The position numbers and the translations under genes are program-made. A stretch of DNA of 6,802 nucleotides from Candidatus Pacearchaeota archaeon (GTDB taxonomy: Archaea; Nanoarchaeota; Nanoarchaeia; Pacearchaeales; GW2011-AR1), in assembly GCA_002690445.1 (NCBI GenBank), contig NZER01000097.1, positions 1 to 6,802 of the forward strand. The letters are read 5' to 3'. Position 1 is the first letter of the stretch. Every line of letters starts with the position of its first letter. A model generated the notes under the pieces. That model was not told where the DNA came from. It was given only the letters and a program-made list of their open reading frames with translations, and searched no databases. Shown piece after piece: positions 1 to 6,802 of the stretch.

Positions 1-77
1 AACTTACCCTTTGCCAGTAGTTCATTTTCACTCTCCTCGGTTGCTGCGACCTAAATGGTCAAAGGGGGTATGATTGC

Positions 78-260
78 TCATACCCAAAAGAAGAAGGCGG
101 TAGTGCATTTGATTAACCGCCATAGACGTAGAAAAAAGACACGCCTATGGGCACGCCGCCAATCTTTCGGGTGACGACGTGAGATCATGTAGTAGACGCA
201 ATACATGAACATTGCGCTATCATGGTCAAGCCGTGCGCTACGTTTTTTTGGAGTTAACAT
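78..260 (-). CDS. Possible 60-aa basic small protein, unknown function
   Basis: I do not recognise this protein. The ATG at 260-258 follows AGGAGT (272-267) with a 6-base gap, a good Shine-Dalgarno arrangement. The same frame stays open upstream to about 368, but nothing there supports an earlier start. The product is rich in Arg/Lys (starts MLTPKKRSARLDHD; an RRHPKDWRRAHRR segment lies mid-protein) and ends in an aromatic stretch AFFFWV. The GGAGT of the ribosome site can pair with ACTCC inside codons 3-5 (250-254 with 267-271), so the site could be masked in the RNA. Two facts argue against a real gene. Long hairpins (183-227 and 120-150) cover much of the frame, and a terminator-like hairpin with a U-rich tail (86-121) lies before the stop codon. 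It may be a chance ORF inside a structured RNA. Confidence 0.3.
   Translation of the reverse strand: MLTPKKRSARLDHDSAMFMYCVYYMISRRHPKDWRRAHRRVFFLRLWRLIKCTTAFFFWV
86..121 (-). terminator. Possible intrinsic terminator of the leftward transcript
   Basis: On the minus strand GGCGGT (121-116) pairs with ACCGCC (101-96) across a 14-base loop, followed by TTCTTCTTTT (95-86). The loop is long and the U tract is interrupted, so strength is uncertain. A second hairpin, GGGTATG/CATACCC (85-79 with 72-66), follows at once but lacks a U tract. The outer stem competes with alternatives: 96-100 can also pair with 156-160, and 120-125 with 145-150. Confidence 0.35.
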
Positions 261-1351
261 GGGCACACTCCTGTTATGACAAAAAGGGCGACAGGTTTCA
301 AACACAGCACTAAAGACTGCTAGCCCGTCGCCCCCACAGCATAGGAGGAGGAGATTTGAAGTCCCCATAGCTTAAACTTCAGGTCACGCCCGCGACGGCG
401 TAGGTTCCTGTAACCCGCTACGCAACAACATTATTGGTTTCTGATTAGTGCGTCCATAGTTGTTGTGCGTGTCCCTACATCTTTCATCATCTACGTGCGT
501 ACCGCATGTGCTTTTGCGGCGGTTTCTATCCGACAGGTTTGGGTTACTGACTACTTTTTGTGTGGTAGGGGTTCTTTGCGTTGCTGAGTCTAAGCTCAGC
601 GGTAAGGCTAGTCTAGCCACAAAAACAACAGCTTGACCAAGGCCAGAACCTTATCAACGTCTATAGTCGGCCAGCCCGACGTTATATGATGGTGTAGTGT
701 TGTAGAAGCTTGGAACAGGGTTGGTATACGTTCGTCCCAGGTATGACCCCATAGTTTTCACTACGGCTAATTAGCGGCTGATTGCTTCCGCTAGCCAGCC
801 CCAACCCGTACCTTTCACGGCCCGAGGTAAGGGGGCTTCGGCCCTACGGCCTGGGTGGGTTCGCCACCCGTGGTGCATTGTCAAGTTCGGCTCCTAAACC
901 GCCGCGACACACGCCGCGCTAATCCTCGTCGCCCTACGTGGTATCCTCAGGTCTATGACCTTCGGTTTAAGTACCTGGGGGGTTTCGCAAACACACAAAT
1001 CCCAGGCAACTCGTTGCCCACGCGGTACGGCAAGTTTCCCTTGCTCACCGGTTGGTTCGGTCTACCCAGCGGACCAGACCGTTTCCACGCTCAGGCTTTC
1101 GCCGTCTGCGGGGTGGGAAGCTTTTGCTTATCGTTCCCAAAGGTTTGGTAGACCATTCGGACGCCTCAGGCATCCCCGTTTTGGCTGGCTTTCTTATCAA
1201 TCAGGCCAGCAGGTTGTTCGCTGTTTCCAGCGACTACCGAAACAAACACTGGTAGTGTCCTAGCTTACCACCAGGGGCAACGAATTAGTACCATTATTAC
1301 TGCTCTTAGTTATGCGTCACGTGCATAACTGCTATGCACCACACGCATGGC
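86..1351 (-). ncRNA. Large highly structured RNA candidate, no known class recognised
   Basis: About 1.25 kb contains no convincing protein gene apart from the doubtful ORF at 78-260, but stems follow one another closely. Pairs, in plus coordinates, include 183-189/221-227 with 197-202/211-216, 286-292/327-333, 420-429/459-470, 502-506/515-519, 606-610/614-618, 718-724/801-807, 772-777/788-793, 853-858/864-869, 974-979/1001-1006, 1005-1009/1014-1018, 1030-1034/1040-1044, 1058-1063/1076-1081, 1184-1189/1205-1210, 1219-1223/1228-1232, 1308-1315/1323-1330 and 1331-1337/1345-1351. The minus strand is favoured because there the loops become GAAA tetraloops (CGCTG-GAAA-CAGCG at 1232-1219, GGC-GAAA-GCC at 1103-1094) and the linkers A-rich, as in folded RNAs. 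On the plus strand they are T/C-rich. Size and style recall the large ornate RNAs of phages and their hosts (GOLLD, ROOL), but I cannot match a conserved motif. Ends are approximate. No clear promoter was found, so it may be co-transcribed with the genes at 1355-1903. Confidence 0.42.
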
Positions 1352-1354
1352 ATC

Positions 1355-1594
1355 TTAAGGATGAGTTTTTTTCGAAAGATTAAGGGCTTTTCGTACTACA
1401 CGCATTCGAGTTATTTGTGCGCTTGTAGGTTCATTACCATGGAGGATATTTAAAAAATAAGCTACTTGTAGCCCCCTGTCGAAGGTTGTTTTTGTGATAA
1501 TTTTATTAACGTCATTAGGGTTAATCGCATATGAGCTAAGACAATAAAAAGTGCGGTCATCCGAACGAATTATATAATGAGTATTTAGGTCCAT
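1355..1594 (-). CDS. Hypothetical 79-aa protein, third gene of a coupled minus-strand operon
   Basis: No family recognised. The ATG directly follows the stop of the upstream gene (TAAATG), with no Shine-Dalgarno site of its own, so translation is probably coupled: the ribosome ending the gene at 1595-1774 restarts here. The N-terminal half (MDLNTHYIIRSDDRTFYCLS) looks beta-rich. The C-terminal half (about residues 35-79, FDRGLQVAYFLNILHGNEP then SAQITRMRVVRKALNLSKK) looks helical and basic. No signal peptide or membrane segment is seen. The stop codon (1357-1355) lies in the loop of a small CATC/GATG hairpin, just before the structured RNA region. Coding is supported by the tight packing of three frames and by sensible protein composition, not by homology. 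Confidence 0.6.
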   Translation of the reverse strand: MDLNTHYIIRSDDRTFYCLSSYAINPNDVNKIITKTTFDRGLQVAYFLNILHGNEPTSAQITRMRVVRKALNLSKKTHP

Positions 1595-1774
1595 TTAAGT
1601 TATCAACGTTCCGCTAAGTTTATTTAAAAGGAGTGCGAACTGTGCGCCCTCCTGGAAATTATTTGTATTTAAGATAATTGCTTCCCCATTTACCACAAAA
1701 TCCTTCGTTCTACAGACCCATTTGTTGTACCCGGGAGACCATATAACTACATATGATTTTGTTAATTCAATCAT
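1595..1774 (-). CDS. Hypothetical 59-aa protein, second gene of a coupled minus-strand operon
   Basis: No family recognised. The frame starts at an ATG placed directly after the TAA of the gene at 1775-1903 and ends in a TAA directly before the ATG of the gene at 1355-1594, so it is locked between two TAAATG junctions. The product begins MIELTKSYVVIWSPGYNKWV, followed by a charged turn (CRTKDF) and a C-terminal segment rich in Asn, Leu and Ala. It looks like a compact soluble domain with aromatic strands near the N-terminus. A 7-bp hairpin with one mismatch (GGAGGGCG / CGCACTCC, 1630-1652) lies within its 3' part. Function unknown. The two junctions are the best evidence that it is real. Confidence 0.55.
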   Translation of the reverse strand: MIELTKSYVVIWSPGYNKWVCRTKDFVVNGEAIILNTNNFQEGAQFALLLNKLSGTLIT

Positions 1775-1903
1775 TTAATTTTTGATACGTATCGTATTCA
1801 GTTGTAGTGTCTGATATTTATATACAAGAGTAATGACCCAACGGAGTGGATCTAATATCGCATAGTCTTGCGCAATTTCGTAAGTCATTTTTGATATAGC
1901 CAT
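1775..1903 (-). CDS. Hypothetical 42-aa protein, first gene of a coupled minus-strand operon
   Basis: No family recognised. I place the start at the ATG at 1903-1901, giving a product starting MAISKMTYEIAQDYAILDPL and ending in a basic NTIRIKN tail. An ATG five codons later (MTYEIAQ) is an alternative. The same frame is open upstream to about 2218, but that stretch crosses strong hairpins (2042-2189) and reads as improbable protein, so I reject the long form. No Shine-Dalgarno site is seen. The start codon sits at the edge of a 6-bp hairpin (ATGGTA/TACCAT, plus 1902-1919), which could affect initiation. It leads a TAAATG-linked series of three genes. Confidence 0.42.
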   Translation of the reverse strand: MAISKMTYEIAQDYAILDPLRWVITLVYKYQTLQLNTIRIKN

Positions 1904-2905: not shown

Positions 2906-3034
2906 ATGACAATAAAGGAAGCTAGAGAGCTTGGATCTACTATTGGTATATTTTTTAGCTATGCTGTGAGAGAGAGATTAAGGCAGTTGAGGATTCCTGG
3001 TTTCATTAGATGTCCTCCCCTTAGAGTTTCTTGA
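2906..3034 (+). pseudogene. Short ORF whose 3' end is a dispersed repeat copy (truncated gene?)
   Basis: The ATG at 2906 sits in the same local context (TAGAATGACA) as the gene at 2475. The first 27 residues look like normal protein (MTIKEARELGSTIGIFFSYA, then VRERLRQ), predicted helical and basic. From 2987 the reading frame runs into a copy of the 35-bp repeat family A (TTGAGGATTCCTGG ... TTAGATGTCC), which supplies the last residues and the stop. The simplest reading is a gene whose 3' part was replaced when the repeat or its cassette arrived. A genuine 42-aa protein is possible. The original function cannot be told. Confidence 0.4.
2987..3022 (+). repeat. Repeat family A, copy 1 (inside an ORF)
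   Basis: It matches the family pattern: (C/T)TGAGGATTC, then a variable centre, then TTAGATG(T)CCT. It is followed by TTTCTTGAG, as the copies near 5941 are, so the downstream context is also conserved. This is the leftmost copy seen. Confidence 0.6.
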
Positions 3035-3101
3035 GTATGTAGGTAGGATGTTTAGTTGAGTGATATGATTTTTAGAGGTGAGAGTAGTTTGATTGGAATT
3101 T

Positions 3102-3167
3102 GATTGGAGTTTTTAGAAGTAAATTGATTGGAGTTTTTAGAAGTAAATTGATTGGAGTTTTTTTTTT
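3102..3167 (+). repeat. 24-bp tandem repeat ending in a T10 run
   Basis: The unit at 3102-3125 (GATTGGAGTTTTTAG then AAGTAAATT) is repeated exactly at 3126-3149, followed by a partial third copy that runs into ten T residues (3158-3167). A weaker partial copy precedes it at 3091. The T run could be replication-slippage prone. Confidence 0.85.
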
Positions 3168-3175
3168 CCGGCCTT

Positions 3176-3241
3176 CTGAAGGGGGGTATAATCTTTCTAT
3201 TCTGACCTGAGGATTCTTATTCGAGCTAGATTACTTCAAGC
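3176..3241 (+). repeat. Repeat family A, two adjacent copies
   Basis: A degenerate copy starts at 3176 (CTGAAGG ... TATAATCTTTCTA) and a good copy at 3207 (CTGAGGATTCTTATTCG ... CTAGATTACTTC). Their 31-base spacing is close to the 35-base period of the tandem arrays further right. CCTTC/GAAGG around 3172-3182 can form a short hairpin. Confidence 0.6.
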
Positions 3242-3280
3242 TGGATATTCATGAAACCCTTTCATACTAAGGGTTCGAGG

Positions 3281-3385
3281 CTGATTTTAAAATTAAATCT
3301 AATCGACCAGGCGAGTCCAAATTTGGACATGAAATAACCACAAATAACCTCTGATTGATTTAAATTAAAATTAATCGATTAACAA
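3281..3385 (+). repeat. AT-rich repeat family C (two copies) with a 14-bp palindrome between
   Basis: CTGATTTTAAAATTAAATC then TAATCGACCAGG at 3281-3310, and CTGATTGATTTAAATTAAA then ATTAATCGATTAAC at 3351-3383, share start, AT-rich palindromic centre and a TAATCGA end. A third copy is at 3750-3785. Between them GTCCAAATTTGGAC (3315-3328) is a perfect palindrome. Meaning unknown; possibly a decayed intergenic element. Confidence 0.5.
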
Positions 3386-3432
3386 CTTGGTGCTCCTACC
3401 CATAAACTTATAGAGTTCTCAGTGTAGAGCTG

Positions 3433-3467
3433 CTGAGGATTCTTGTTCGAGCTAGATTGCTTCAGTC
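3433..3467 (+). repeat. Repeat family A, single copy
   Basis: CTGAGGATTCTTGTTCGAGC followed by TAGATTGCTTCAG. CTGAG and CTTCAG at its ends can pair, and CTAGA/TCTAG form a second small stem. It shares the TTGTTCGAGCTAG centre with the copy at 3846, making a subfamily with the copy at 3207. A family B-like GAGTTCGAATTCGAG follows near 3490. Confidence 0.7.
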
Positions 3468-3749
3468 TAGAGTTTCATGAAAGTAATAGAGTTCGAATTC
3501 GAGTCCTACCCACCACATCTTGTGTTTTCGAGACCGCCCTTGAAATAGGTTTTAAATCAAAATTCCTCAATGGGGCGAATCGTCGGAGACCCGCAGAGAA
3601 CTAGGAAAGTGATTTTCACGAAAACTAGCTAATTCAGCCTCTTCGGCATACTATATCTTGTGCTTAACCTTACTTCAGGACTCCCTACCTAGTGGTTCGT
3701 CAATTGGTTAGTCGATGTTTAATCTGTTGAGCTCTGTTAAATGAATAGC

Positions 3750-3785
3750 AGATTGATATTAATTTTAATTTAATCGACTGAGGCG
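3750..3785 (+). repeat. AT-rich repeat family C, third copy
   Basis: AGATTGATATTAATTTTAAT then TTAATCGACTGAGGCG resembles the copies at 3281 and 3351, including the TAATCGA motif and, as in the 3281 copy, a following AGGCG. The AT-rich centre is nearly palindromic. Confidence 0.45.
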
Positions 3786-3845
3786 CACGCCGCGTTTTAT
3801 TACACACGTCGAGTTTTTATCCCAAACATTACAAGGTGCAAATGG

Positions 3846-3967
3846 CTGAGGATTCTTGTTCGAGCTAGATTGCTTCTGGCTAGATAATTCTGAAATAAAA
3901 AGAGGTAGAGTTCGATCTCGAGCGGCTCAGAAAAGAAAGCCTAGGTTTGAATTCGATCTCGAAAATA
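3846..3967 (+). repeat. Repeat A followed by two family B copies
   Basis: Family A copy at 3846-3880, then GTAGAGTTCGATCTCGAGCG ... AAAGAAAG (3905-3938) and a shorter TTGAATTCGATCTCGA (3946-3961). The same A-then-B order on the plus strand is seen at 5836-6005 and 6459-6648, although the gene to the right here (4086-4607) is on the minus strand. The order therefore does not depend on gene direction. Confidence 0.65.
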
Positions 3968-3975
3968 GTCCAGTC

Positions 3976-4012
3976 AAATAAAAAAGAAAGTGGAGGGGCT
4001 CGCGCCCCTCCA
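3976..4012 (-). terminator. Strong intrinsic terminator of the 173-aa gene
   Basis: On the minus strand TGGAGGGGC (4012-4004) pairs perfectly with GCCCCTCCA (3999-3991) around a 4-base loop, followed by CTTTCTTTTTTATTT (3990-3976). The nine-bp GC-rich stem plus U-rich tail lies about 73 bases after the stop of the gene at 4086-4607 and ends its transcript before the repeat region. Confidence 0.9.
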
Positions 4013-4085
4013 ACTTCCTCACAGCGCCAGGCCGTTTGATCCGAGGACTGCCAGAAAGGCAGCCCACCAAATCATCCAACGCAGC

Positions 4086-4607
4086 TCAGGAAGCATTGGC
4101 CGCTTCTTGCTGCGCCTTCTTGCGCCCCGCCGTCGCCGCGCGCCGCGCCTTGTCCTTCGCCCGTCGCTCGGCCTTCCGCGCGTTGGCCCGGTCGTCCGTC
4201 TTCGGCCTCGCCAATTGCTTGGCGATCTTCGTGTCCTGCTTGTCCAGGTGAGCCCGGAGGGCCACCATGTCCACGCAGAACGCCTTCACGGACCGGCCGT
4301 TCACGCTCGCCATGGCGACGGTCGTGAACGTGGACAGGTTGCCGTAGCGAAGGACGTTGGCCCGCGTGTGACCATTCCCTCCGTGCAGCTTGCTGAGCAC
4401 TCCGGTCTCATCGATGGTCACACCCTCGCTGCGCATGGCGCACGCGGCGACAGCCCAACCGATCGAGCCGGCCTTGAACATCCTCGCCGCGAGGGCCGCC
4501 ATGGCCTTCGTGACGCGCGTGGGCAGGTCGAACGTGCCCGGACCATTCGGATCGTTCCAAGTGACCTTGGTGGACTCGATGGCCTTACGCTCATTTCGCT
4601 TTGCCAT
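4086..4607 (-). CDS. Hypothetical 173-aa protein with basic C-terminal tail
   Basis: No family recognised. The start is the ATG at 4607-4605, preceded by AAGGAG (4621-4616) with an 8-base gap. The N-terminus is polar and charged (MAKRNERKAIESTKVTWNDP). About residues 28-65 are Ala-rich and probably helical (TRVTKAMAALAARMFKAGSI). The middle (about 66-120) has a GVLSKLHGGNGHTRANVLR loop and looks globular. Residues about 130-173 form an Ala/Arg/Lys-rich helix or coiled coil (ARKAERRAKDKARRAATAGR), suited to binding nucleic acid, though that is inferred. No signal peptide or clear membrane segment. The gene is much richer in GC, especially at third codon positions, than all its neighbours, suggesting recent transfer from a high-GC source. 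It is monocistronic, with its own promoter, about 180-base leader and terminator. Confidence 0.85.
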   Translation of the reverse strand: MAKRNERKAIESTKVTWNDPNGPGTFDLPTRVTKAMAALAARMFKAGSIGWAVAACAMRSEGVTIDETGVLSKLHGGNGHTRANVLRYGNLSTFTTVAMASVNGRSVKAFCVDMVALRAHLDKQDTKIAKQLARPKTDDRANARKAERRAKDKARRAATAGRKKAQQEAANAS

Positions 4608-4615
4608 AACAATGG

Positions 4616-4621
4616 CTCCTT
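4616..4621 (-). promoter_or_regulatory. Shine-Dalgarno site AAGGAG of the 173-aa gene
   Basis: A perfect AAGGAG 8 bases before the ATG at 4607, which fixes the start codon. The leader hairpin at 4628-4648 ends 6 bases upstream of it. Confidence 0.85.
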
Positions 4622-4627
4622 GATACA

Positions 4628-4648
4628 GCCCCTAGGAAACCTGGGGGC
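4628..4648 (-). promoter_or_regulatory. Leader hairpin just upstream of the ribosome site
   Basis: GCCCC (4628-4632) pairs with GGGGC (4644-4648) and AGG (4634-4636) with CCT (4640-4642), loop of three, one mismatch on the minus strand. Next to it the ten-base word CCTTCAGGTA (plus) occurs twice, at 4648-4657 and 4664-4673. It may protect the 5' side of the ribosome site or serve in translational control. Confidence 0.5.
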
Positions 4649-4791
4649 CTTCAGGTAGCAACACCTTCAGGTATTACCAAACGAATGTATGTAGGAATAA
4701 GGTTTCTAGCGGCGCTGCTTTTCAGGGCAAATCGCTCGTGGGGGTCCGAACCCTTGTTCAGTCTTTTTGTTTTTATATGTGTAGTATGTGG

Positions 4792-4820
4792 AGCCTACCA
4801 CGTATGACAACGAGTTGACA
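4792..4820 (-). promoter_or_regulatory. Promoter of the 173-aa gene (extended -10 type)
   Basis: On the minus strand TCATACGTGGTAGGCT (4807-4792) nearly repeats TCATATGTGGTAGGCT of the promoter at 6746-6761. The -10 is TAGGCT with a TG one base upstream. The -35 position (TGTCAA, 4820-4815) is weak, as can be tolerated with an extended -10. It implies a leader of about 180 bases. The shared -10 core links this GC-rich gene to the same replicon as the plus-strand cassettes. Confidence 0.55.
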
Positions 4821-4879
4821 GCTTAAATTGACCATGAATTTGCATGACAGCTATGCGTTAAATGCATGGCTCGTCGTCA

Positions 4880-4915
4880 TGTGAGGATTCATGGTTTCGT
4901 TAGATGCCTTCAGCC
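4880..4915 (+). repeat. Repeat family A, single copy opening the right-hand cassettes
   Basis: GTGAGGATTCATGGTTTCG then TTAGATGCCTTCAGCCTGG. It is closest in its centre to the copy at 2987 (CTGGTTTCATTAGATG). It is followed, as at 5941, by a CTTTCCTTC word. Confidence 0.7.
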
Positions 4916-4941
4916 TGGATGTTGTTATTCCTTTCCTTCAG

Positions 4942-5031
4942 GAACGTTCTTGAGTTCTTCGTTGAAGAACGTTCACGTTTTGTTCTCTTACTCGAATAGG
5001 TATCTATTCCGAAACGTTCACGTTTTGTTCT
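4942..5031 (+). repeat. Hairpin and 18-bp direct repeats
   Basis: GAACGTTCTT (4942-4951) pairs perfectly with AAGAACGTTC (4965-4974). ACGTTCACGTTTTGTTCT occurs twice, at 4969-4986 and 5014-5031, 45 bases apart. Between them GAATAG gtat CTATTC (4994-5009) is a perfect small hairpin. No gene is supported here. Confidence 0.75.
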
Positions 5032-5072
5032 TTCAGCTAGTCGAAGTTCCCTCCCTCGAAGTGGTAAAGAGC

Positions 5073-5216
5073 GATATACCCCTTCGGGGTATATCAATAT
5101 TTGATGTCGAGTTCGATCTCGAGCGGGCTCAAGAAAGAAAGCTGGATATACCCCTTCGGGGTATATCAATATTTGATGTCGAACTCGAATTCTTCCAATT
5201 GTTGAATAATAGAAAC
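5073..5216 (+). repeat. 72-bp tandem duplication carrying perfect hairpins and family B
   Basis: GATATACCCC (5073-5082) pairs with GGGGTATATC (5086-5095) with a TTC loop. The identical hairpin recurs at 5145-5167. The 72-base unit starts with this hairpin and continues with AATATTTGATGTCGA and a family B block. About the first 38 bases are identical in both copies, after which the second decays. There is no U tract, so these are not standard terminators. The unit may have grown by slippage or unequal exchange. Confidence 0.8.
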
Positions 5217-5270
5217 TGGCAGAGGATTTGCATCAAAAGTCTTCTTAAATGCTTGGGTAGTTAAGAGTAC

Positions 5271-5299
5271 TTTACATGTCTTTGCCCACATGCTAGGCT
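5271..5299 (+). promoter_or_regulatory. Sigma70-type promoter of the 127-aa gene
   Basis: TTTACA (5271-5276), a 17-base spacer, and TAGGCT (5294-5299) with TG at 5291-5292 (extended -10). Related sequences lie before the next two cassettes at the same distance from the conserved start-of-transcript motif. Confidence 0.7.
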
Positions 5300-5306
5300 G
5301 TCTATG

Positions 5307-5328
5307 GTTGTTGGACATTGTCAATAAG
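5307..5328 (+). promoter_or_regulatory. Conserved start-of-transcript motif, copy 1
   Basis: GTTGTTGGACATTGT followed by CAATAAG begins 8 bases after the -10 box, so it covers about the first 20 transcribed bases. TTGGACATTGTCAA is nearly two-fold symmetric here. It could be an operator at +1 or a 5' tag in the RNA. Confidence 0.65.
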
Positions 5329-5400
5329 TATGTGGAACCGTTGAATGGCAGCGGCACAGGTACTTTGTGCGTGTTGCTGAAACCTTGAAAGGAATAGGCT

Positions 5401-5784
5401 ATGAGCATGAAAAATACCTTGACCCGAGAGTTGCTGGCCCAGCATGGGTATGAGGTGAAATTGTGGGACAGTGGCGACGGCGGCGATGACTACTGCGTCC
5501 TGAAGGAGTCGAACAAGTGGTTGGCCGCCATTTGTTACCACAAGGGCGAGTATATGTGGGGTTCTGTGCCCCATGCTGGCCAGCCTTGCATTGTCGCTTT
5601 GTGCGACATGGACAAGTTGCGGGCCGAGTACCCTGTCGAGTGGGCAGAGGCCGAGGCGAATGGCTACGACCACTACCCCATGGACAGCGACATGTCATGC
5701 ACCGTCGAAACGGTGTACGACACGCTGGAAGAAGCCTTGGCAGCATTAAAAGGGTTGCTGCCGGAAGGACTAGAAAAGAGCTAG
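5401..5784 (+). CDS. Hypothetical 127-aa acidic protein
   Basis: No family recognised. The start is the ATG at 5401, with AAAGGA (5388-5393) 7 bases before it. The ATG two codons later is too far from that site. The protein is acidic and soluble, with no signal or membrane segment. About residues 1-45 contain a short Asp/Gly turn (WDSGDGGDDYCVLKESNKW). A middle beta-like part (IVALCDMDKLRAEY) contains Cys, an Asp/Glu-rich part follows (EWAEAEANGYDHYPMDSDMS), and a C-terminal helix (YDTLEEALAALKGLLPEGL) ends it. The gene stands alone between its own promoter (5271), a leader of about 95 bases and a terminator (5804), the cassette plan repeated downstream. GC content is moderate, above that of the flanking repeats. 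Confidence 0.85.
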   Translation: MSMKNTLTRELLAQHGYEVKLWDSGDGGDDYCVLKESNKWLAAICYHKGEYMWGSVPHAGQPCIVALCDMDKLRAEYPVEWAEAEANGYDHYPMDSDMSCTVETVYDTLEEALAALKGLLPEGLEKS

Positions 5785-5803
5785 AAGACGTGTGCTGAAT
5801 TGT

Positions 5804-5830
5804 GGGCCGGGTAAAACCGGCCCTCTTTTT
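5804..5830 (+). terminator. Intrinsic terminator of the 127-aa gene
   Basis: GGGCCGG (5804-5810) pairs with CCGGCCC (5817-5823), loop GTAAAA, followed by TCTTTTT. It lies 19 bases after the stop codon. Stem and loop are almost identical to the terminator at 6427. Confidence 0.92.
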
Positions 5831-5835
5831 GTCTA

Positions 5836-5940
5836 CTGAGGATTCATAATCTTTTTAGATCTCTTCCCACCTGAGGATTCATAATCTTTTTAGATGCCTT
5901 CGGCTCGGAGGATTCATAATCTTTCTAGATGCCTTCGGTC
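5836..5940 (+). repeat. Three exact-period tandem copies of repeat A (35 bp)
   Basis: Units start at 5836, 5871 and 5906, exactly 35 bases apart. Each reads (CTG/CGG)AGGATTCATAATCTTT, then (T/C)TAGAT, then CTCTTCCCAC in unit 1 or GCCTTCGG in units 2 and 3. A fourth, decayed unit starts at 5941 (CTGAACC). The array starts 6 bases after the terminator tail. Confidence 0.9.
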
Positions 5941-5972
5941 CTGAACCTTTCCTTCTTGAGTCCTTCACAGTT

Positions 5973-6005
5973 GATGTCGAACTCGAGTGGCTCAAGAAAG
6001 AAAGG
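5973..6005 (+). repeat. Repeat family B copy
   Basis: GATGTCGAACTCGAG then TGGCTCAAGAAAGAAAGG. It matches copies at 5103, 5175 (partial), 6581 and 6622 (partial). It contains CTCGAG within a near-palindrome TCGAACTCGAG, and always follows the A repeats on the plus strand. Confidence 0.8.
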
Positions 6006-6046
6006 ATTTTTTTTATCCCAAAACATCTAATGAGTGCAATGAAAGC

Positions 6047-6075
6047 TTTTATGAAAAGCACACATATGCTAGCCT
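6047..6075 (+). promoter_or_regulatory. Sigma70-type promoter of the 86-aa gene
   Basis: TAGCCT (6070-6075) with TG one base upstream, and TTTTAT (6047-6052) 17 bases before it. Weaker than the 5271 promoter by match, but in the same place relative to the start-of-transcript motif. Confidence 0.6.
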
Positions 6076-6082
6076 TATAGGT

Positions 6083-6104
6083 GTTGTTGGACATTGTAAA
6101 TAAG
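6083..6104 (+). promoter_or_regulatory. Conserved start-of-transcript motif, copy 2
   Basis: GTTGTTGGACATTGT then AAATAAG, identical over 15 bases to the copy at 5307 and again 8 bases after the -10. Confidence 0.65.
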
Positions 6105-6157
6105 GTTTCGTTGTGGTGCGCATACCGCGCGCCGCCGTCTTTGGTATGGAGTTCGTC

Positions 6158-6418
6158 ATGAAAGCTACACGTAATCGAACTACAGTGTACCGCGCCGTGG
6201 GCGACTGTCTTGACATACTAAGCAGCCGCCTTGATGAAAGTCCTGCTGTTGACTTGGCTGACAACATAAATGAAAGTGTGTTGTACCTGTCATATATGGC
6301 AGACGTGTTTCATCAACTGGCTGACAGCCCAAGTCAACGCAAAAAGCTTTTCAGCACGCTTGCTGAAGAAGCAGACGACTTAGTTGAAGAAGTCGCCGTT
6401 GAATTCAAGACTGGCTAA
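6158..6418 (+). CDS. Hypothetical 86-aa acidic helical protein
   Basis: No family recognised. I choose the ATG at 6158 (product MKATRNRTTVYRAVGDCLDI...) because GGAG (6148-6151) precedes it by 6 bases. A GTG at 6113 in the same frame has no such site and would add 15 residues. The short basic N-terminus (KATRNR) is followed by mostly helical sequence: about residues 10-35 with CLDILSSRLDES, then NINESVLYLSYMADVFHQLA, then LFSTLAEEADDLVEEVAVEF at the acidic C-terminus. It looks like a small helical bundle or dimer, with no membrane segment. It is a single-gene cassette like its left neighbour, with promoter at 6047 and terminator at 6427. The function of either gene is not visible from context. 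Confidence 0.8.
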   Translation: MKATRNRTTVYRAVGDCLDILSSRLDESPAVDLADNINESVLYLSYMADVFHQLADSPSQRKKLFSTLAEEADDLVEEVAVEFKTG

Positions 6419-6426
6419 GACATAAG

Positions 6427-6453
6427 GGCCGGGTAAAACCGGCCTTTCTTTTT
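6427..6453 (+). terminator. Intrinsic terminator of the 86-aa gene
   Basis: GGCCGG (6427-6432) pairs with CCGGCC (6439-6444), loop GTAAAA, tail TTTCTTTTT. Stem and loop repeat the terminator at 5804 almost base for base, showing that the terminator belongs to the repeated cassette frame. Confidence 0.92.
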
Positions 6454-6458
6454 GCCCA

Positions 6459-6562
6459 CTGAGGATTCATTCTTTTTTTAGATCTCTTCCTACCTGAGGA
6501 TTTATAATCTTTCTAGATGCTTTCAGCCCGAAGGATTCATGTTCTGGTTAGATGCCTTCGGC
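6459..6562 (+). repeat. Three tandem copies of repeat A (35 bp)
   Basis: Units start at 6459, 6494 and 6529, again exactly 35 apart, with a decayed continuation from about 6563. The order of variants matches the array at 5836: unit 1 ends in CTCTTCCTAC, units 2 and 3 in GC(T/C)TTC(A/G)G. In the last unit CCGAAGG (6528-6534) and CCTTCGG can form a 7-bp stem. Terminator plus array were therefore copied as one block. Confidence 0.9.
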
Positions 6563-6580
6563 CTCGAGCCTTTCATGTTT

Positions 6581-6730: not shown

Positions 6731-6790
6731 TTTACACAAGGCTGGTCATATGTGGTAGGCTGTCTGGTGTTGTTTGACATTGTTTAAAGG
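6731..6790 (+). promoter_or_regulatory. Promoter and start motif of a third cassette, gene beyond the window
   Basis: TAGGCT (6756-6761) with an extended TG. TTTACA at 6731-6736 is 19 bases upstream, or TACACA 17 upstream. GTTGTTTGACATTGT then TTAAAGG (6769-6790) starts 8 bases after the -10, as in copies 1 and 2. No coding start is visible in the 12 bases left. Confidence 0.6.
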
Positions 6791-6802
6791 TAACTAGTCG
6801 CT

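Follow-up and report, generated by a model that had tools for sequence, protein, structure and literature searches.

A ~1,070-base, non-coding-looking stretch of a Pacearchaeota contig that may yield a partly well-folded RNA not assigned to any recognized family

The DNA analyzed here (the window) comprises 6,802 nt, that is, positions 1 to 6,802 of contig NZER01000097.1 (assembly GCA_002690445.1), assigned to a Candidatus Pacearchaeota archaeon. Three adjacent small open reading frames (ORFs) were found on its minus strand: ORF c (1775..1903; 42 aa if started at the ATG at 1903, a start chosen by eye), ORF b (1595..1774; 59 aa), and ORF a (1355..1594; 79 aa), which is the last of the three. 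The stop codon of ORF c lies directly before the start of ORF b, and that of ORF b directly before the start of ORF a, both junctions reading TAAATG. Similarity between ORF a and ORF b was weak, being equalled in 7 of 1,000 shuffles, and none was found by BLASTP.

ORF a ends at 1355 and adjoins a candidate non-coding RNA unit of ~1.07 kb (281..1354, minus strand), which extends from the ORF a stop to an intrinsic terminator and contains a multi-branched domain (domain I, 919..1288) in its 5′ third. No period-3 signal was found over 86-1351. The 5′ end of the RNA was placed from the ORF a stop only, and a search of 1-2400 detected no promoter above chance (5 sites vs. 3.9 expected). Two overlapping and mutually exclusive hairpins (1339-1321 and 1330-1308), possibly a switch, are present on the minus strand at the 5′ end of the unit (1308-1339). 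Past the terminator, a separate hairpin cluster (60..262) was identified, followed at the very start of the contig by the beginning of a minus-strand ORF (1..25, read by eye) that carries the Shine-Dalgarno-like sequence GAGGAGAG and runs out of the window.

The terminator (281..335, minus strand) was identified by stem scan, folding, and shuffling. It is composed of a 12-pair stem (335-324/295-284) containing 8 G-C pairs, a 28-nt loop, and the subsequent UUUUUGUC, a U-run into which the final stem pairs extend. None of 300 shuffles of 86-1400 reached at least 10 pairs with at least 8 G-C pairs ahead of a T-run, a criterion that was set after the stem had been seen. The standard terminator scan missed this element because of its 28-nt loop. 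Two further candidates came from the script that looks for a stem before a T-run, one on the minus strand (157-138), which is weaker, and one on the plus strand (6424-6447). The tail TTTTTGTC recurs behind a plus-strand stem ending near 5823. Read on the plus strand (286-337), the terminator hairpin presents a stem of 7 bp (GGGCGAC/GUCGCCC) with C and CCA behind it, an arrangement superficially similar to the acceptor end of a tRNA; ARAGORN identified no tRNA, there or elsewhere in the 6,802-base window, to which that search was confined.

The presence of the terminator suggests that the RNA has its 3′ end near 281. This site and the stop of ORF a at 1355 together delimit a unit of about 1354-281, instead of the 86-1351 given in the initial annotation. 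That annotation had described one ornate RNA across all of 86-1351, a description contradicted by the terminator near 281, by weak minus-strand folding of 281-919, and by the hairpin cluster at 60-262, the loops of which are A-rich on the plus strand. It had further proposed a long-range helix joining 327-334 with 1274-1281. In the fold of 1354-279, 333-324 paired instead with 295-286, and the probability of the pair 330-289 was 0.999, in comparison with ~4e-10 for 330-1278. The terminator stem thus occupies the bases assigned to the partner of 1274-1281, which are then unavailable for the proposed helix; longer partners for 1275-1283 were found at 926-934 and 1011-1019. Long-range duplexes were rejected as proof of structure, since the best minus-strand duplex was equalled in 4 of 40 shuffles. 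A helix joining both ends of the RNA was seen in the fold, yet it is at chance level (1300/2000) and was likewise rejected.

Domain I (919..1288, minus strand) has about eight arms and is closed by the helices 1288-1275/934-919 and 1271-1266/943-938. It was recognized from folding energy, ensemble diversity, the composition of unpaired bases, and the fold itself, in which (1354-279) the closing helices had pair probabilities of 0.77-0.94 and the main helices of the arms at least 0.88. Over 925-1284, the fold was more stable and better defined on the minus strand. The minus-strand minimum free energy was -149.2 (z -5.39), a value reached by none of 300 shuffles, and the z-score was -5.12 (0/150) when shuffling kept the local composition. 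Ensemble diversity on this strand was 0.097 per nt, compared with 0.247 in shuffles (0/100 as low), and 45% of the unpaired bases were A, compared with 25% on the plus strand. The plus strand was also below all shuffles in energy, although less so (z -3.4 to -3.8), and its ensemble was diffuse, its diversity being matched or undercut by 69 of 100 shuffles. Three long perfect helices were counted in 925-1300 on the minus strand, fewer than in most shuffles. The control segments were not clean: two of eight segment-strands (3300-3659 plus and 5400-5759 minus) had lower diversity than any of the 100 shuffles, and segment 2100-2459 plus had a z-score of -6.6. The support for domain I therefore lies in the agreement of several measures and not in any one of them. 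With its strong terminator and this one well-supported domain, the locus is likely a minus-strand non-coding unit of ~1.07 kb that belongs to no recognized class.

The remainder of the unit folded less convincingly. The many stems noted previously are present, in that dozens of helices of at least 4 bp with mean pair probability above 0.6 were found on either strand. With 30 shuffles, the whole region 86-1351 had a z-score of -5.39 on the minus strand and -5.23 on the plus strand. Control windows of equal length gave -5.3 to -8.0 on both strands at 4086 and 5300, low values that we think are owed partly to repeats, and -2.4 to +0.5 at 1400 and 2666. Since comparable scores were thus obtained for other parts of the contig, the whole-region score was not accepted as proof of a structured RNA. 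With shuffling inside 120-nt blocks, 279-1354 gave -3.7 on the minus strand and -4.1 on the plus strand, and 200-nt windows over the region ranged from about -3.5 to +1.0 on either strand. Minus-strand folding was weak at 281-512 (z 0.06), 367-764 (z -1.70; 8/150), and 504-914 (z -2.25; 4/150).

These data bear on a plausible, though not preferred, reading, according to which the operon transcript reads on to the terminator at 281 as a 3′ trailer, or the stretch is intergenic DNA in decay, and its hairpins, besides the terminator, are chance or functionless leftovers. In favor of this reading, folding over two thirds of the unit is hardly or not at all better than in shuffles, comparable z-scores occur elsewhere in the contig, and no conservation was detected. 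In contrast, domain I on the minus strand is below all shuffles in both energy and diversity, and an untranslated trailer of 1 kb would be long for a phage-like element. A structured minus-strand RNA unit remains the reading that we prefer.

The assignment to the minus strand, as made in the initial annotation, holds at least for 925-1284 and for the terminator; some other segments favor the plus strand. Lower z-scores were obtained on the plus strand at 181-229 (-4.49 vs. -2.39 on the minus strand), 262-352 (-4.56 vs. -3.40), 536-682 (-2.16 vs. -0.37), and 1300-1357 (-3.86 vs. -1.63). Long perfect helices in 86-1351, wobble pairs allowed, numbered 70 on the plus strand (as many in 1 of 40 shuffles) and 53 on the minus strand (5 of 40), so that these counts favor the plus strand if anything. 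Hairpins with GAAA loops had been reported to appear only on the minus strand. Counting GNRA hairpins with at least 4 pairs, we found two on the minus strand (loops starting at 1227 and 759) and none on the plus strand; the argument from strand is weak, however, because 121 of 500 minus-strand shuffles carried two or more. Tetraloop hairpins of all kinds on the minus strand were mildly enriched, with 36 found against a shuffle mean of 25.6 (reached in 16/500). Similarly, A-rich linkers had been described as a minus-strand feature. This was observed in most 160-nt windows across 361-1300, the bias among unpaired bases being level or slightly reversed in windows 541-700 and 601-760, but it was reversed in all windows starting at 1-301.

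In the cluster at 60-262, strong hairpins were seen on either strand, with z-scores of -4.1 on the plus strand and -5.0 on the minus strand; the fraction of A among unpaired bases in 61-220 was 0.52 on the plus strand vs. 0.22 on the minus strand. The cluster may be part of the minus-strand gene that begins at 25, or it may be a plus-strand RNA. The region as a whole could hold several small elements, some of them on the plus strand, such as the hairpins at 96-160, 183-227, 268-350, 540-678, and 1304-1351. The four segments with lower plus-strand z-scores and the loops that are A-rich on the plus strand in windows starting at 1-301 point in this direction, as do plus-strand T-runs at 243-249 and 1366-1372. 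However, neither T-run has a strong stem ahead of it in the scan that found the minus-strand terminator, and domain I favors the minus strand; we regard such an assortment of elements as unlikely.

Known classes of large RNA were compared with the preferred candidate, a single minus-strand unit. Rfam 15 gave no credible match, either for the window at E-values up to 1 or for 1-1460 searched in pieces at E-values up to 10, both searches being run without a positive control, in agreement with the earlier statement that the class is not recognized. The matches to UPD-PK2, GRIK4_3p_UTR, adapt33_3, PAGEV, bxd_5, and SOX2OT_exon2 (E-values of 0.89 to 6.3) were far below gathering scores and were rejected. 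In particular, the covariance models of GOLLD, ROOL, OLE, and group I and II introns, the known classes against which a check had been suggested, were all without a match. Membership in GOLLD or ROOL, which had been put forward as one possibility, was further disfavored by the absence of a tRNA from the window.

OLE lies among operon protein genes, and the candidate would resemble it in this setting and as a large structured RNA. In contrast to the candidate, which has no Rfam match, OLE is described in PMC9723947 as an RNA of ~600 nt from Gram-positive bacteria. According to PMC12286853, the functions of GOLLD, ROOL, and OLE are still poorly understood, many GOLLD members exceed 800 nt and consist of separate domains with a variable linker, and GOLLD and ROOL often occur near tRNA islands. 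The candidate is similar to GOLLD, as described there, in size and would likewise have domains split by a variable linker. It differs from GOLLD in lacking an Rfam match and a tRNA in the window, and also in that its better defined part is the 5′ one, whereas the same source names the 3′ region as the universally conserved part of GOLLD. ROOL is a large structured RNA in which ordered regions are joined by a disordered linker (PMC12286853), a layout that the candidate would share; the candidate again differs in the lack of an Rfam match and of a tRNA in the window. Size and general look are all that would connect the unit with a divergent member of GOLLD, ROOL, OLE, or the group I or II introns lying too far off for a covariance model, and with no family match at E-values up to 10 (or up to 1) and no nearby tRNA, this is very improbable.

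By the tests available, 86-1351 is non-coding. Period-3 power was 0.53, compared with a shuffle mean of 0.73 (186/300 shuffles as high), and did not exceed 1.12 in any 240-nt window of the region. Among reference ORFs, it was 8.76 and 5.96 in the two clearest (4086-4607 and 5401-5784, respectively) and 2.84 in 6158-6418. The test can score short true genes low, as in 1355-1774 (ORFs a and b; 1.59, with 13/300 shuffles as high) and 2167-2660 (1.25). The longest open stretch in the region, 121 codons, was reached by 198 of 500 shuffles. The earlier statement that no convincing long gene is present was thus borne out, and the protein-like codon constraint that would have spoken against an RNA was not seen in the period-3 test of 86-1351. 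Open frames of 78-102 codons do occur, but it is scarcely credible that the region codes for small, fast-evolving proteins, given the shuffled open stretches, the low period-3 power of the 240-nt windows, and the lack of relatives for 955-1263 (plus strand), the single frame of the region used in a protein search.

Relatives of the RNA were sought in several collections. No match was obtained by blastn of the window against a phage collection or of 60-1460 against plasmids and E. coli genomes, and a 360-base query against phages at E-values up to 10 returned nine records with matches of only 25-29 bases. Exact-word scans of IMG/VR aimed at the RNA and a scan of GTDB genomes with a frame of the RNA found no relatives. 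Of 52 IMG/VR loci retrieved with a pattern from the RNA, none preserved the hairpin in which that pattern lies, no more than 2 flanking pairs being retained, and seven loci from a scan aimed at the 173-aa ORF or the repeat had little beyond the search pattern in common with the window. Because these scans need exact words, moderately diverged relatives could escape them. Nothing that could be tied to the element was found in the literature; a sequence is not searchable in text, so this result says little on novelty. As the relatives needed as proof were not found, the status of the unit stays that of a candidate.

The proteins of the window were similarly isolated. No relatives were detected by tblastn of its ORFs against phages and plasmids, and no credible family was assigned (eight ORFs against Pfam and PHROGs, seven against NCBIfam). 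A protein search with the 127-aa ORF at 5401-5784 returned its own cluster only. For the 173-aa ORF (4086-4607, minus strand), two relatives of ~70% identity, P0003 and P0004, were returned besides the cluster of the ORF itself, the only ones among 5.8 billion proteins; these relatives exist on metagenome contigs, and P0004 departs abruptly from the 173-aa ORF at its C-terminus. The ORF's cluster was located on 5 contigs, and P0003 on 3 contigs of up to 10,799 bp. The DNA of P0003 and P0004 was absent from the IMG/VR and GTDB genomes scanned. The 173-aa ORF has ~65-70% GC within a contig of mostly 35-50% GC.

Repeated elements were found in other parts of the window. A 35-nt intergenic element (GAGGATTC, ~10 nt, and TAGATGCCTTC, with variants) occurs in about eleven copies on the plus strand at 2987-6574, with a tandem run of three copies at 5838-5938; IMG/VR contained no instance of the strict form. 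A 40-nt element containing GTTGTTGGACATTGT lies ahead of ORFs in three plus-strand copies (5291-5330, 6067-6106, and 6753-6792), two of which are preceded by TTTACA and TAGGCT hexamers, and it is likely a shared promoter and leader. A near-perfect inverted repeat, CAATGCCCCACAC/GTGTGGGGCATTG, with a loop of 18-20 nt and no flanking T-run (by eye), is present at 2142-2187 and is possibly a protein-binding site or a regulatory hairpin. In addition, a 51-nt repeat that includes the UUCG-loop hairpin GATATACCCCTTCGGGGTATATC occurs twice, 72 nt apart, at 5066-5188 (plus strand). The small orphan ORFs, the terminator-like hairpins, and the many intergenic repeats hint at an origin in a phage or some other mobile element, which we infer from these features.

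Our best explanation, held tentatively and with somewhat less than even confidence, is a minus-strand unit of ~1.07 kb of non-coding RNA with a structured 5′ domain and a terminator, most likely a structural (scaffold) RNA. Minus-strand transcription would read through the three small coupled ORFs, or begin just after them, continue for ~1.07 kb of non-coding sequence, and halt at the intrinsic terminator near 281. Processing of the operon transcript would release the RNA, or it would be made from a promoter of its own. Its 5′ third (1288-919) would form a compact, multi-branched domain whose unpaired bases are rich in A, and the 600 nt between domain I and the terminator would have a poorly determined structure. 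In its role, most likely that of a structural (scaffold) non-coding RNA, it may be broadly similar to the large ornate RNAs known from phages and bacteria.

A more specific proposal, which is speculative and rather doubtful, is that of a new class: a large structured RNA of ~1.1 kb encoded by a mobile element not sampled so far. It would be produced along with tiny orphan genes, with cleavage or initiation directly downstream of them, and would comprise a compact 5′ domain, a flexible middle part, and a terminator of its own; possibly it would also self-assemble, as do ROOL and GOLLD, the latter into a homo-oligomeric cage. Few classes of ~1 kb RNA are known besides those of ribosomes and introns. 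As a single sequence without reachable relatives, the unit is a lead and not a discovery. If the proposal is true, it would represent a further class of ~1 kb RNA with attached small genes, the products of which would be candidate partner proteins.
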